From Rhizobium sp. Leaf371 (GTDB taxonomy: Bacteria > Pseudomonadota > Alphaproteobacteria > Rhizobiales > Rhizobiaceae): a DNA stretch of 64,000 nucleotides. This document shows positions 29,107 to 34,656 of the stretch, piece by piece. A program made the position numbers and the translations under genes. The notes beneath the pieces are model-generated. The model had not been told where the DNA came from. It saw nothing but the letters and a program-made list of their open reading frames with translations, and did no database searches. Numbering within the stretch: position 1 is the stretch's first letter; the number at the start of each line of letters is the position of its first letter. The stretch is taken from assembly GCF_001424045.1 (NCBI RefSeq), contig NZ_LMQB01000001.1:594083-658082 (forward strand). Direction: 5' to 3'.

Positions 29107-31155
29107 CTATTTTCGGATCATGCTGCCGAGCGGCTTGCGGAGAAGGCTTTCGCGCAGCGACGGCGCCCGCAGGGAGGCTGCAGCTTCATCGAGCCCTTGC
29201 GGAGCGGGGGCGGTTGGGGCTGAAGCGTCCGCCTCGCCGCCGAGGATCTGCCGACGATAGGCATTGAAGCGGTCGGCCTGAGGATTCGACAGGGGATCGG
29301 AATATTGCGGTTCGACGCGGGGCAGCATGTCCGGGCGGTAGCTTTCGAGCCTGTCCGTCGGGCTTCGTGCGTCCGATCGGGTCGAAGTGTCTGGCCACTC
29401 CGCAGCGCGGTCGGCAAGGGGCGGCGGAGCGAGCGGTTCTCCGGAAGAGAATCCGCCGGCCGCCGCCGAATGGGCCGCAAACGACGCCGTTTCGCCGATG
29501 GAACTCGCGCGCATGCGCGCGACGATGGTGCGCAGATCGACATTGGCCGGCGTTTCGTCGTCGGCCTTCACAAACCCGCCGGCCGCCTTCGGCAGGCGGT
29601 TGTCCGGGATGCGCGCGAAGCGCATGCGCATCGGCACCGAGACCGCTTCGCCGAAAGCGATGGCCTCGCCGTTTCCGATCGAGGAGAGGAAGCTCATGGT
29701 CGAGACGGACGAATCCGGGATGGCCGAGCGGATGATGTCCTGGTCGCGATCGTTGGAGAGGCGCATGGCAAAGACCGTGGAGCACTGCGACAGGATGGTC
29801 GGGTCCAGTTCGCCGGGACGCTGCGTGATGATGCCGAGCGAGACGCCGTATTTCCGGCCTTCCTTGGCGATGCGGGCGATGGCCTGGCGCGTCGGCAGGA
29901 AGCCGAGGGACTGATCCGACGGCACATAGCGGTGCGCCTCTTCGCAGACGACCAGCATGTGGACGCCGCCATTGCTCCAGAGCCCGATCTCGAAGGCCAT
30001 GCGGCAAAGAACGGAGGCGACCGAATTGACGACCTCCGAGGGAATGCCCGCCAGCTGGAACGTGGTGATGGGGCGCCCTTCGCCCGGAATGCGAAAGATC
30101 TTCGCGATCGTTTCCAGGATCGTGTCGTTGATCGTGTTCGAGGAGAACATGAAGGTGTAGCGCGGATCGTTGACGGCTGCCATGACGCGAACCTTCAGCG
30201 ACCGGAGCGACGGCTTCTCGCCACGCCCTTCCAGACGGCCGATCCGCTCGTCGATCAGTGCGATGAGGTCGGCGATGCGATAGGGCACCGGCGTGTCCGC
30301 CGTCAGGGAGCTTTTCTCCGTCTGCCGCCGCATCACGCCGCCGTCGCCCTTGAAGCCTCGCTTGGCCTCGGGAATGAGATCGCGCAGGATGTCGAGTTCC
30401 TCGGCAATGGCGGAGCGCCCCCGGAACACGACTTCCGCGAACTCTTCCAGCCGCATCAGCCAGAAGGGCAGGTCCAGCGTGTCTGTGTCGATGACGACGG
30501 CATGGTCGGGAAAGGCGGCGGCGAACTCGTTGTGGGGATCGAGGATCAGGATTCGCAGCTTCGGGTCGGCTTCGATCGCCTTTCGCAGGAGAAGCGTGAC
30601 GGCCGTGGATTTGCCGACGCCGGTGGTGCCGACGACGGCGAAATGTTTCGACAGCATCGAGGGAATGTGGATCGTCGCGTCCAGGCTGTCGTCCTGCGTC
30701 AACTGGCCGATGGTGAAGCAACCGCCGCGACCCGTGTCGTAGATGCGGGCAAGGTCGGCGGTGCGGATACGGTGGGCGACGGCGCCGAGATAGGGGTATT
30801 GGCTGATGCCGGCGGAAAATCCCTCGCGCCCGTCGATATCGACCCGCACCTCGCCCACGAGTTCCACGTCGATGCGGAAGACGTTGTCCTGCTGCTCCGC
30901 CCAGTTGTCGTCGCTCGTGCGCATGGAGGAGACGAGGGCGACGACCCGATTGGTCCCGACGGTGATGGACACCAGCCGCCCGACCGACCAGAGTTCGGTC
31001 AGCGACGTTTCGCCGTTTTCGGCCAGTGCGGCGATGGTCGCGCGGGAACCGTTGCAGGCGATGACGCGACCGAGGAAGCGATTGCCCCGGGCGACCGTAT
31101 CGCGCCTGTCCGCCTCCGCTGTCCGGCCTTCGGCCTGAAGTTCGTTGTTCACCAC
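29107..31155 (-). CDS. HerA-like ATPase (DUF87 family)
   Basis: 682 residues from a GTG with GAGG 7 bases upstream. A beta-barrel (HAS-like) N-terminal domain covers about 25-130. The DUF87/HerA ATPase core has Walker A GTTGVGKS (176-183), Walker B HMLVVCEEAHRY and the sensor region LGIITQRPGELDPTILSQCST. Residues beyond about 545 are low-complexity and probably disordered. HerA hexamers translocate DNA with the NurA nuclease in archaea, and bacterial relatives work in repair or defence. No nuclease partner is adjacent. A dyad lies in its leader. Confidence 0.85.
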   Translation of the reverse strand: MVNNELQAEGRTAEADRRDTVARGNRFLGRVIACNGSRATIAALAENGETSLTELWSVGRLVSITVGTNRVVALVSSMRTSDDNWAEQQDNVFRIDVELVGEVRVDIDGREGFSAGISQYPYLGAVAHRIRTADLARIYDTGRGGCFTIGQLTQDDSLDATIHIPSMLSKHFAVVGTTGVGKSTAVTLLLRKAIEADPKLRILILDPHNEFAAAFPDHAVVIDTDTLDLPFWLMRLEEFAEVVFRGRSAIAEELDILRDLIPEAKRGFKGDGGVMRRQTEKSSLTADTPVPYRIADLIALIDERIGRLEGRGEKPSLRSLKVRVMAAVNDPRYTFMFSSNTINDTILETIAKIFRIPGEGRPITTFQLAGIPSEVVNSVASVLCRMAFEIGLWSNGGVHMLVVCEEAHRYVPSDQSLGFLPTRQAIARIAKEGRKYGVSLGIITQRPGELDPTILSQCSTVFAMRLSNDRDQDIIRSAIPDSSVSTMSFLSSIGNGEAIAFGEAVSVPMRMRFARIPDNRLPKAAGGFVKADDETPANVDLRTIVARMRASSIGETASFAAHSAAAGGFSSGEPLAPPPLADRAAEWPDTSTRSDARSPTDRLESYRPDMLPRVEPQYSDPLSNPQADRFNAYRRQILGGEADASAPTAPAPQGLDEAAASLRAPSLRESLLRKPLGSMIRK

Positions 31156-31305: not shown

Positions 31306-31334
31306 TTGACGACATGGCCGAATGCCGGTATCAG
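31306..31334 (+). promoter_or_regulatory. Sigma70-type promoter of the ilvB leader
   Basis: TTGACG (31306-31311), a 17-base spacer, then TATCAG (31329-31334). The predicted start, near 31341, is only one or two bases before the leader-peptide ATG, so the transcript would be nearly leaderless. Confidence 0.7.
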
Positions 31335-31342
31335 TGCGCCCC

Positions 31343-31399
31343 ATGAACATTCAAGCAATCATTCTTGTGGTGGGATCGCGCATGGGCAGGATGGTGTAA
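31343..31399 (+). CDS. ilvL: Branched-chain amino acid leader peptide (ilvB attenuator)
   Basis: An 18-residue frame, MNIQAIILVVGSRMGRMV, with the run Ile-Ile-Leu-Val-Val at residues 6-10 and further Ile and Val codons. It is followed by alternative hairpins and a terminator before ilvB. Ribosome stalling when Ile, Leu or Val tRNAs are uncharged would favour read-through, the classical attenuation logic for acetolactate synthase. The promoter fits a nearly leaderless start, so no Shine-Dalgarno is expected. The function is inferred from codon content and context, and the symbol is by analogy. Confidence 0.85.
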   Translation: MNIQAIILVVGSRMGRMV

Positions 31400-31455
31400 C
31401 CATCCGGCGATAGCCACCCATGCGCAAACCAAGGCTCCTGACGGGGCCTTTTTTT
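31381..31455 (+). terminator. Attenuator hairpins and terminator upstream of ilvB
   Basis: GGATGG/CCATCC (about 31389-31405) is nested inside CATGGG/CCCATG (31381-31422). Downstream, AAGGCTCC (31431-31438) pairs with GGGGCCTT (31443-31450) around TGAC and is followed by TTTTT (31451-31455). The downstream hairpin is a textbook intrinsic terminator. The upstream ones overlap the end of the leader peptide. Confidence 0.85.
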
Positions 31456-31490
31456 ATGCCTTCGAACAAGCAGAGCACAGGATCCAAGAC

Positions 31491-33299
31491 ATGTCGGGCG
31501 GGAAGAGCGAAATGGATGAAGCGAGCAGGGACGAGAACAGGATGACGGGCGCGGAGATCGTTCTGCGTGCGCTCAAGGACAATGGCGTCGAGGTCATCTT
31601 CGGCTATCCCGGCGGTGCCGTCCTCCCGATCTACGACGAAATCCACCAGCAGGAAGACATCAAGCATATCCTCGTCCGTCACGAGCAGGGCGCAGGCCAT
31701 ATGGCCGAGGGCTATGCCCGCTCGACCGGCAAGGTCGGCGTCATGCTCGTCACCTCCGGCCCCGGCGCGACCAATGCCGTGACGCCGCTGCAGGATGCGC
31801 TGATGGACTCCATCCCGCTCGTCTGCCTGTCCGGCCAGGTCCCGAGCTCGCTGATCGGTTCCGACGCCTTCCAGGAATGCGACACGGTCGGCATCACCCG
31901 GCCCTGCACCAAGCACAACTGGCTGGTCAAGGACGTCAACGAGTTGGCAGCGATCATCCACGAGGCGTTCCGCATCGCAAAGTCCGGTCGTCCCGGTCCG
32001 GTTCTGGTCGATATTCCCAAGGATATCCAGTTCGCGACGGGCACCTACACGCCGCCGTCGGCCGTTCCGATCCAGACGAGCTATCAGCCGAAGATGGATG
32101 GCGATATCCGCCGCATCGAGGAAGCGGTCGCGTTGATGAAGACGGCACGCCGTCCGATCATCTATTCCGGCGGCGGCGTCATCAATTCGGGCGACGAGGC
32201 GACGCGGTTGCTGCGCGAGCTGGTTTCGCTGACGAATTTTCCTATCACCTCGACCCTGATGGGCCTCGGCTGCTACCCCGCCTCCGGCACCAACTGGCTC
32301 GGAATGCTCGGCATGCACGGCACCTACGAGGCCAACATGGCCATGCACGATGCCGACGTCATGATCTGCATCGGCGCGCGTTTCGACGACCGGATCACCG
32401 GCCGGCTGAACGCGTTTTCGCCGAACTCCAAGAAGATCCACATCGACATCGACCCATCCTCGATCAACAAGATCGTTCGCGTCGATGTCCCGATCGCCGG
32501 CGATGTCGGCCGCGTTCTGGAAGAGATGGTTCGCCTGTGGCATGCCGGATCGGCCGGGCTCGACACGGCGCGGCTGAACGACTGGTGGGCCGATATCGCC
32601 CGCTGGCGGGGGCGCAAGTCGCTGTCCTACAAGCAAAGCGCCGACGTCATCATGCCGCAATATGCCATCGAGCGCCTGCATGCGCTGACCAAGGACCGCG
32701 ATACCTACATCACGACGGAAGTCGGACAGCACCAGATGTGGGCGGCGCAGTTCTACGGCTTCGAAGCGCCGAACCGCTGGATGACCTCGGGCGGGCTCGG
32801 CACGATGGGCTATGGTTTCCCGGCTGCGATCGGCGTTCAGGTCGCGCATCCCGACAGCCTCGTCATCGACATCGCGGGCGATGCCTCGATCCAGATGTGC
32901 ATCCAGGAAATGTCCTGCGCCGTGCAATACAGTCTGCCGGTCAAGATCTTCATCCTGAACAACCAGTATATGGGCATGGTGCGCCAGTGGCAGCAGCTGC
33001 TGCACGGCAATCGTCTCTCCAACTCCTACACGGAGGCGATGCCCGATTTCGTCAAGCTGGCGGAAGCCTATGGCGGCGTCGGCATTCGCTGCGACAAGCC
33101 CGGCGAGCTGGACGATGCGATCCTGCGGATGATCGACAGCCCGGCCCCCGTCATCTTCGACTGCCGCGTCGCCAACCTTGCCAACTGCTTCCCGATGATC
33201 CCCTCGGGCAAGGCGCACAACGAGATGCTGCTGCCGGACGAGGCCACCGACGAAGCGGTCGCCACCGCGATCGATGCCAAGGGCCGCCAGCTGGTTTGA
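31491..33299 (+). CDS. ilvB: Acetolactate synthase, large catalytic subunit
   Basis: 602 residues from the ATG at 31491. In-frame ATGs at 31512 (with GGAAGAG upstream) and 31542 are alternatives. The ThDP-activating Glu65 lies in RHEQGAGHMAEGYARSTGK. The pyruvate-oxidase middle domain follows, and the ThDP/Mg motif GDASIQMCIQEMSCA runs into NNQYMGMVRQWQ. It makes acetolactate or acetohydroxybutyrate for Val, Leu and Ile. An attenuator governs entry and a strong terminator follows. A toxin-antitoxin pair separates it from ilvN. Confidence 0.96.
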   Translation: MSGGKSEMDEASRDENRMTGAEIVLRALKDNGVEVIFGYPGGAVLPIYDEIHQQEDIKHILVRHEQGAGHMAEGYARSTGKVGVMLVTSGPGATNAVTPLQDALMDSIPLVCLSGQVPSSLIGSDAFQECDTVGITRPCTKHNWLVKDVNELAAIIHEAFRIAKSGRPGPVLVDIPKDIQFATGTYTPPSAVPIQTSYQPKMDGDIRRIEEAVALMKTARRPIIYSGGGVINSGDEATRLLRELVSLTNFPITSTLMGLGCYPASGTNWLGMLGMHGTYEANMAMHDADVMICIGARFDDRITGRLNAFSPNSKKIHIDIDPSSINKIVRVDVPIAGDVGRVLEEMVRLWHAGSAGLDTARLNDWWADIARWRGRKSLSYKQSADVIMPQYAIERLHALTKDRDTYITTEVGQHQMWAAQFYGFEAPNRWMTSGGLGTMGYGFPAAIGVQVAHPDSLVIDIAGDASIQMCIQEMSCAVQYSLPVKIFILNNQYMGMVRQWQQLLHGNRLSNSYTEAMPDFVKLAEAYGGVGIRCDKPGELDDAILRMIDSPAPVIFDCRVANLANCFPMIPSGKAHNEMLLPDEATDEAVATAIDAKGRQLV

Positions 33300-33340: not shown

Positions 33341-33354
33341 AAAAGGTGAGGGCG

Positions 33355-33681
33355 ATGGCGAGAGCAAGGATGTCTGACACGGGAATGGTGGAGCTTCCGA
33401 GGGCGCTCCGCGATGCCGTGGGGCTTTATCCGGGCTCCGAAGTGGAGATCACGGAAAGCGGCGGCAAGTTGATCGTTGAGCCTGTACCCGCGGCTTCGTC
33501 GGAAACGACGGGCAAACGGACAATCGCCATGGAGGCATTCCTGGCGAAGCGGATGAGGTACGACGGCCCGCCGATCACGGACGAAATGATGCATCAAGCC
33601 ATCCTTGACGAGGCAAAACAGCGGTGGGACAGCGTTCAGCGACAGTGGGACAAAGGCATCGATGAAAACCCTGTCGATTGA
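33355..33681 (+). CDS. vapB: VapB-like antitoxin (AbrB/SpoVT-type DNA binding)
   Basis: 108 residues. The swapped-hairpin AbrB motif GMVELPRALRDAVGLYPGSEVEITESGGKLIVEPV occupies about 10-48. A C-terminal toxin-binding arm rich in charged residues follows. The ATG at 33355 is chosen, and GTG at 33346 is an alternative. It overlaps the toxin gene by 20 bases, as in most VapBC operons, and would both neutralise the toxin and repress its own promoter. Confidence 0.85.
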   Translation: MARARMSDTGMVELPRALRDAVGLYPGSEVEITESGGKLIVEPVPAASSETTGKRTIAMEAFLAKRMRYDGPPITDEMMHQAILDEAKQRWDSVQRQWDKGIDENPVD

Positions 33682-34063
33682 TACCAATGTTCTCGTCCGG
33701 TTGCTGGTCCTTGACAACCCGGAGCAGAACGCGATCGTCGAGCGCCTTTTCACAACCAATCGTTTTTCGGTCCTCTGGACCGTGCTCATGGAGGCGGAGT
33801 GGGTGCTGAGGAAAGTCTTCAAGGCGGACACTCGGCGCATCAACGACATGTTCAGATCCATGCTGATCGACGAATTGATCGAGGTCGCGCGTCCCGACGC
33901 GCTGACGTGCGCTCTCGACCTTCATTCCGCGGGCATGGATTTCGCCGATGCGGTGCATCTCTGCCTGACGGATGAAAGCATGCCTTTCGTCACCTTCGAC
34001 CGCGATCTTGTGCGCCGCGCGAAAAAACTCATACCCGACGCCAGCGTCGAGCTGGCCCAATAA
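33662..34063 (+). CDS. vapC: VapC-like PIN-domain ribonuclease toxin
   Basis: 133 residues. PIN-domain acidic residues are in place: Asp7 (SIDTNVLVRLL), Glu44 or Glu46 (LMEAEWVL), Asp93/Asp96 (GMDFADAVH) and Asp113/Asp115 (TFDRDLVRRA). VapC toxins are Mg-dependent RNases, often acting on tRNA or rRNA. The start lies inside the antitoxin gene. The ilvN ribosome binding site follows only a few bases after its stop, so ilvN may be translated from toxin-antitoxin transcripts. Confidence 0.88.
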   Translation: MKTLSIDTNVLVRLLVLDNPEQNAIVERLFTTNRFSVLWTVLMEAEWVLRKVFKADTRRINDMFRSMLIDELIEVARPDALTCALDLHSAGMDFADAVHLCLTDESMPFVTFDRDLVRRAKKLIPDASVELAQ

Positions 34064-34083: not shown

Positions 34084-34656
34084 ATGAACGCCCACCTACA
34101 ACCGACCGGCTCTGCCTATTTCATCGCCAAGGAAACCGAGATCGCGGAGAAGCACACGCTGTCCGTTCTCGTGGCCAACGAGCCGGGCGTTCTGGCGCGG
34201 GTGATCGGGCTGTTTTCCGGGCGCGGCTACAATATCGAGAGCCTGACCGTGTCGGAGACCGAACACGAGGCGCATCTCTCGCGGATCACGATCGTGACGC
34301 GGGGGACGCCGCATGTGCTGGAGCAGATCAAGTCGCAGCTCGAACGGCTGGTGCCGGTTCACCGCGTCGTGGATCTGACGGTGCGCGCCGGTTCTCTCGG
34401 GCATGACCGTCCGATCGAGCGGGAGGTGGCACTGGTGAAGGTCAAGGGCACCGGTGAGAACCGGGCGGAGACGCTGCGTCTGGCCGATGCCTTCCATGCC
34501 AAGGTGGTCGATGCGACGGTCGAGCATTTCATTCTGGAAATCACGGGGAAGTCGTCGAAGATCGACCAGTTCGTCGCCGTGATGAAGCCGCTCGGCTTGC
34601 TGGAAGTCTGCCGCACGGGCATCGCCGCCATGAACCGCGGCGCGCAGGGAATGTAA
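34084..34656 (+). CDS. ilvN: Acetolactate synthase, small regulatory subunit
   Basis: 190 residues with GGAGGA 9 bases before the ATG. The N-terminal ACT domain (HTLSVLVANEPGVLARVIGLFSGRGYNIESLTV in outline) binds valine and gives feedback inhibition. The C-terminal domain (VALVKVKGTGENRAETLRLADAF) stabilises the holoenzyme. Its catalytic partner, ilvB, is 0.8 kb upstream beyond a terminator and the VapBC pair. Stoichiometric expression therefore needs read-through or a promoter within the inserted segment. Confidence 0.95.
   Translation: MNAHLQPTGSAYFIAKETEIAEKHTLSVLVANEPGVLARVIGLFSGRGYNIESLTVSETEHEAHLSRITIVTRGTPHVLEQIKSQLERLVPVHRVVDLTVRAGSLGHDRPIEREVALVKVKGTGENRAETLRLADAFHAKVVDATVEHFILEITGKSSKIDQFVAVMKPLGLLEVCRTGIAAMNRGAQGM

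Follow-up and report, generated by a model that had tools for sequence, protein, structure and literature searches.

The DNA immediately upstream of ilvB in Rhizobium sp. Leaf371 is highly likely to encode a ribosome-sensing transcription attenuator of that gene, with a leader peptide translated from a leaderless transcript in which 0 to 2 nucleotides (nt) precede the start codon. The locus lies within the 64,000-nt stretch of DNA that was analysed (the window), whose numbering is used below; features are on the + strand unless stated otherwise.

Results

Organization of the ilvB leader region

A −35 box, TTGACG (31306–31311), whose TTGAC starts 37 nt 5′ of the leader ATG, is followed after a 17-nt spacer by a −10 box, TATCAG (31329–31334), which ends 8 nt 5′ of the ATG and has −10-like counterparts at the equivalent place in relatives. 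The stretch between TATCAG and the ATG at 31343 is TGCGCCCC. The spacing from the −10 box and the CC 5′ of the ATG would place the transcription start within 31341–31343, with A31343 the likeliest position. A consensus promoter scan of the attenuator stretch called 0 promoters (TATCAG is without the final T), and the assignment of the promoter therefore rests on comparison.

The leader open reading frame (ORF; 31343–31399, with its stop codon at 31397) encodes the 18 residues MNIQAIILVVGSRMGRMV and contains, by ORF reading and codon analysis, the regulatory codons ATC ATT CTT GTG GTG (Ile Ile Leu Val Val; 31358–31372). Folding and covariation identified a hairpin, P1, with its 5′ arm in the last third of the leader ORF (31378–31386) and its 3′ arm at 31417–31425. 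Two inner hairpins (31389–31405 and 31406–31415) are nested within P1 in the fold, and the stem of the first covaries. Downstream, a terminator hairpin of 8 pairs with a loop of 4 (31431–31450) was found by terminator scan and folding, where 0.6 terminator-like sites are expected by chance in the scanned stretch; it runs into 7 T residues (31449–31455), 5 of which lie 3′ of the stem. An attenuated RNA would thus be about 113 nt long, with its 3′ end expected at the T run. The earlier note had described an 18-residue peptide with Ile-Ile-Leu-Val-Val, nested hairpins overlapping the end of its ORF and a T5 terminator 5′ of ilvB, and all of these were confirmed, the peptide by ORF translation and the hairpins with the addition that P1 and its first inner stem covary.

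The presumed regulated gene, ilvB/ilvI (31491–33299), encodes the large subunit of acetolactate synthase (NCBIfam NF006581, 1193.5 bits); its start codon was picked by eye using the reading frame and homologues. Between ilvB and the small-subunit gene (34084–34656) are a MazE/AbrB-type antitoxin gene (33346–33681, +) and a PIN-domain gene (33650–34063, +), which may be carried on the ilv transcript. On the other side, a HerA-like ATPase gene is divergent from the locus (29107–31155, − strand). The divergent gene SMc01432 of S. meliloti adjoins a predicted ilvIH element (PMC2573895).

Position of the leader start codon

TTGAC was found 34 to 38 nt 5′ of the leader ATG at 71 of the nearest 80 titled ilvB loci (the best 80 of at least 590 ilvB matches, with L088 still scored as a miss), counts that are neither independent nor drawn from a fair sample, because the loci are kin and the 80 are the nearest relatives. 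The motif fell at this distance in 1.0% (82/8000) of shuffled upstream sequences. The spacer sequence varies across the 71 loci while the promoter-to-ATG spacing stays; judged by that spacing, the sensor ORF is kept in a leaderless position. A Shine-Dalgarno (SD)-like motif (AGGA, GGAG or GAGG in the SD window) was seen at none of the 71; 4 of the 9 loci without the leaderless geometry have one. At the 71 loci, C is found at −1 in 94% and at −2 in 89%, and S. meliloti mRNAs begin most often with A (47.9%; PMC3616915), which together make the A of the ATG the likeliest start. In the window, the AUG follows TGCGCCCC and is likewise without a Shine-Dalgarno sequence. The leader AUG very probably coincides with the 5′ end of the RNA or lies no more than about 2 nt from it. 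The start one or two bases 5′ of the ATG that the earlier note had predicted from the promoter boxes is, as far as sequence comparison can tell, upheld by the TTGAC spacing, the lack of an SD motif and the CC 5′ of the ATG.

Wider sampling of the same leader revealed a second form. The leaderless geometry was present in 21 of 100 order-level matches to the RNA family RF02502 (described below), comprising 7/7 in the window's family and 14/93 outside it, and an SD-like motif was present in 46/79 of those without the geometry as compared with 1/21 of those with it. Among 102 non-redundant leaders, drawn from 180, the corresponding figures were 1/32 for the leaderless type and 36/70 for the others (Fisher p = 5e-7); L088 was omitted from this set and from the codon analyses, since the leader at that locus is probably a different ORF from the one selected. 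A C stands at position −1 in 88% of the 32 leaderless-type leaders, as compared with 30% of the 70 others. The start codon was ATG in 32/32 of the leaderless type versus 62 ATG and 8 GTG in the others, a difference that is not decisive (p = 0.054) and is biased toward ATG because the script chose leader starts by I/L/V density with ATG preferred. The leaderless and SD-bearing versions offer a natural comparison for studying leaderless translation coupled to attenuation.

One could envision that the attenuator is driven mainly by a promoter farther upstream, giving a longer untranslated leader, and that TTGACG/TATCAG is minor or inactive. The SD-like motif that stands ahead of the same leader in 47 of the 93 order-level matches outside the window's family fits such an arrangement, as does the consensus scan, which called no promoter at TTGACG/TATCAG. 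This explanation is nevertheless unlikely, given that the 34- to 38-nt spacing persists in 71/80 loci with differing spacers, that 0/71 have an SD-like motif and that CC precedes the ATG. We therefore favor a leaderless start at or next to the ATG.

Amino acid and codon content of the leader

Runs of 4 or more I/L/V residues are present in 92 of the 102 non-redundant leaders, which carry a mean of 5.9 I/L/V in 17 codons, although I/L/V content was one of the grounds on which leaders were chosen. Of 10637 random 17-codon ORFs matched to the local composition, 0.3% had a run of at least 5. The region 5′ of P1 is conserved mainly at the second bases of the I/L/V codons. Comparison of 79 leaders with their ilvB genes showed that the leader codons are shifted toward those less used by ilvB: CTT accounts for 61% in leaders versus 8% in ilvB (odds ratio 18), ATT for 49% versus 17% (4.6), GTG for 69% versus 26% (6.4) and GTA for 21% versus 2% (11.5). 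CTC did not differ between the 79 leaders and ilvB (26% versus 29%). The ilvB gene of the window has 2 ATT among 47 Ile codons, 1 CTT among 44 Leu codons and 3 GTG among 41 Val codons. RNA structure may constrain the choice of regulatory codons.

Secondary structure of the leader RNA

Covariation was examined in 27 of the 102 leaders, namely the first 31 minus the hard-to-align L100, L104, L106 and L107, which were excluded beforehand; the structure was that of RNAalifold, to which one P1 pair was added and in which the register of the terminator was set manually. Pairing holds in 95.9% of the cells across the 27 leaders. Two-sided changes were found in 11 of 20 pairs versus 4.5 in shuffles, and 0/500 shuffles scored as high, with the caveats that kin sequences can beat such shuffles and that the structure was derived from the same alignment. 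When the partner columns were slid by 1 to 3 positions, at most 4 pairs had two-sided changes. The pairs with two-sided changes include 6/9 of P1 and 4/4 of those counted in the first inner stem. In L096, L102 and L103, both arms of P1 are altered and the peptide is altered along with them, and therefore the C-terminal residues appear to serve the RNA.

P1 and the terminator coexist in 98 of the 100 leaders having a terminator; the count was made over 102 leaders, and no terminator was found in L084 and L209. The gap between the two hairpins is 5 nt in the window, with a median of 4 and a range of 0 to 19 in the 100 leaders. When a ribosome was represented by each of 13 masks on the window fold, the terminator probability was at least 0.93 in every case. 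Five arm-swap tests of the terminator 5′ arm against the upstream RNA in 100 leaders gave no score above that of swapped arms, and the real arm was lower than the swapped one in 25–35 of 100. These three results together mean that a classical, mutually exclusive antiterminator is not shown. No common partner for the terminator 5′ arm appeared in nascent-RNA folds of 21 leaders; in some of the nascent folds (e.g., L031, L093 and L106), P1 was extended a short way into the terminator arm, and these extensions differed between leaders. In a single-sequence shuffle test, 71.5% of shuffles were as good as the real sequence for ilv and 17.5% for the trp control, so that the test was weak there too. 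G·U wobble pairs are found within the terminator arms of 61 of 100 leaders, and a search for the partner at which they hinted found none. An extended terminator, in which the P1 3′ arm pairs past the T run, appears in masked window folds and lies beyond the release point.

The earlier note had called the element a branched-chain attenuator. The I/L/V leader, the covarying P1, the terminator and the position 5′ of ilvB agree with that claim, whereas folds and arm swaps yielded no antiterminator that excludes the terminator. A terminator that folds at every ribosome position modelled, together with the negative antiterminator searches, is what would be seen if the terminator were constitutive and the upstream ORF non-sensing, the two merely setting a low level of ilvB expression. 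A structure of this kind does not account for I/L/V runs of at least 4 in 92/102 leaders or for the codon shift, and the analogous Caulobacter ilvBN leader has been described as an attenuator (PMC4117421); we consider it quite improbable. We think that P1 acts upon ribosome stalling.

Distribution of the RNA family RF02502

A whole-window search gave a full-length match to RF02502 ("Rhizobiales sRNA Atu_C8") at 31345–31465, covering model positions 1–122 of 122 with 111.5 bits (gathering score 50; E = 1e-23). No Rfam family besides RF02502 exceeded its own gathering score at the locus, and this is the single RF02502 match in the window's genome at E ≤ 0.001. At that threshold, the family was found in 240 of 247 genomes of the window's taxonomic family (234 over the cut-off), and all 7 genomes without it are 2.0 Mb or less. 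At the order level it was found in 100 of 199 genomes (28 over the cut-off). The class-level search, run with strict filters by which weak matches are lost, detected it in 6 of 289 genomes (2 over the cut-off), and those 6 include the window's genome and another genome of its order; the RF02502 model therefore hardly extends past the order. None of 14 control genomes had a match. A strong match of 98.8 bits at G661:C3:9228-9347, in a genome that belongs to the class but to a different order, could be either a transfer or a misplaced contig.

The full-length match equates the "sRNA" Atu_C8 with this attenuator. Atu_C8 reportedly stems from an Agrobacterium sRNA paper. Because Rfam lists RF02502 as an sRNA and the expected terminated product is about 113 nt, one might suppose that the RNA is an independent trans-acting small RNA that lies 5′ of ilvB by chance, its ORF and hairpins serving stability and target pairing; S. 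meliloti rnTrpL would provide a precedent (PMC7298713, PMC10117765). Chance placement is difficult to reconcile with an ilvB-like gene 3′ of the RNA and on the same strand in 98 of 100 order-level matches (100 fetched of 103 listed, the window's own included and the two weakest, G143 and G077, omitted), or with the further Rhizobium copies that were read, all of which precede an MFS or ilvB-like gene (37/37). Conservation ahead of P1, being mainly at the second positions of I/L/V codons, and the leader codon shift likewise fit sensing. A purely trans-acting role is thus very unlikely, and action of the terminated ilv leader RNA in trans is unsupported. With the family read as a cis-acting attenuator, an RNA known as an "sRNA" is now tied to control of ilvB.

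Additional copies upstream of efflux-type genes

Two or three RF02502 matches per genome were counted in 95 of 120 genomes of Rhizobium, the genus to which G187 belongs. Of 29 second copies taken from the best-scoring part of the match list, 27 stand ahead of an MFS gene and 2 ahead of an ilvB-like gene; once those of G187, G387 and G023 are included, 29/32 second copies in that genus are MFS-linked. All 30 MFS-linked copies (L244, L245, L246 and L249–L275), which include one from G127 in another family, keep the terminator, P1 and a TTGAC 36–37 nt 5′ of the ATG; L247 and L248 were retrieved and left out of the analysis. For the MFS fragments of G387 and G127, the best match was Bcr/CflA efflux TIGR00710, at 112 and 130 bits, scores that come from protein fragments and are below the whole-protein cut-off of 201. 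G127 carries the leaderless form 5′ of the MFS gene and the SD-like form 5′ of ilvB. Further copies at L113, L239, L241, L276 and L277 are located 5′ of apparent second ilvB-type genes.

Judged from the DNA, the efflux-gene copies are the most surprising part of this analysis, and among the literature matches listed there was none for an attenuator copy at an efflux gene. We put forward, tentatively and with the balance slightly against it, that the cassette of leaderless promoter, leader peptide, P1 and terminator is a portable regulator through which slow ribosomes turn on an efflux pump. The triggers would be starvation for branched-chain aminoacyl-tRNAs and perhaps translation-inhibiting compounds. 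If the efflux copies work, they would link amino acid attenuation to the control of efflux.

Discussion

We propose that RNA polymerase starts at or beside A31343 and that a ribosome then loads at the 5′-terminal AUG without the help of a Shine-Dalgarno sequence. Given an ample supply of charged Ile, Leu and Val tRNAs, the ribosome would pass ATC-ATT-CTT-GTG-GTG and reach the stop codon at 31397, where it would mask the P1 5′ arm, with the result that transcription terminates at about 31455 and the RNA of about 113 nt (Atu_C8) is freed. When charged tRNAs are scarce, the ribosome would stall at the regulatory codons, P1 would fold behind the polymerase and a larger share of polymerases would enter ilvB. 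P1 would in this scheme weaken a terminator with which it coexists, and it might do so either by a short competition at the boundary, as proposed for C. glutamicum, or by an effect on the polymerase.

An alphaproteobacterial "ilvB leader peptide" had already been described (Corbino et al. 2005, citing Vitreschak et al. 2004; PMC1273637), and in S. meliloti an "ilvIH cis regulatory" element is predicted 5′ of SMc01431 (PMC2573895); as far as these two sources describe it, the leader peptide of Vitreschak et al. likewise lies 5′ of ilvB. Atu_C8 shares the hairpins and terminator of the window locus along the full length of the model. The match begins at the third base of the leader ATG, and the model consensus carries on, by eye, with the same leader-peptide codons up to the stop. 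The difference is that Atu_C8 is filed as a small RNA, with a description line that mentions neither a leader peptide nor an attenuator.

The ilvBN leader of Caulobacter, which carries tandem Ile and Val codons and a Rho-independent terminator, has been described as an attenuator (PMC4117421). It resembles the window locus in its Ile/Val leader and terminator, but RF02502 is absent from the 14 control genomes, which include Caulobacter. The ilvBNC leader peptide of C. glutamicum is discussed as leaderless, with the Leu/Val control codons CUU and GUA, and its terminator and antiterminator are said to overlap by one boundary trinucleotide (PMC11857589). A leaderless leader peptide is proposed for both systems; C. 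glutamicum belongs to a different phylum, and the likeness is one of description, not alignment.

S. meliloti trpL/rnTrpL combines a leaderless leader-peptide ORF with a terminated small RNA; it has Trp codons and is associated with trpE, and trans action of both RNA and peptide has been reported (PMC7298713, PMC10117765). The window's genome has a trp leader of its own, MINALILSVWWWAR (L278, from 1305 on contig C1, +), with a terminator. Its −10-like CTAACA ends 7 nt 5′ of the ATG; there is no TTGAC, and by eye a TTGCCA lies 16 nt 5′ of CTAACA. The −10-to-ATG layout is similar to that of the ilv leader and is leaderless-like.

The earlier note had suggested that an ilv equivalent would extend the idea of leaderless leader peptides. 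In the portions of the literature retrieved from the open PubMed Central subset, none of the matches listed stated a leaderless ilv leader in rhizobia. The novelty is smaller than the note supposed: the ilvB leader peptide and Atu_C8 were already on record, and a leaderless ilv leader peptide is discussed for C. glutamicum. As an ilvB attenuator, then, the element is known, and Corynebacterium offers a parallel for a branched-chain leader that is leaderless.
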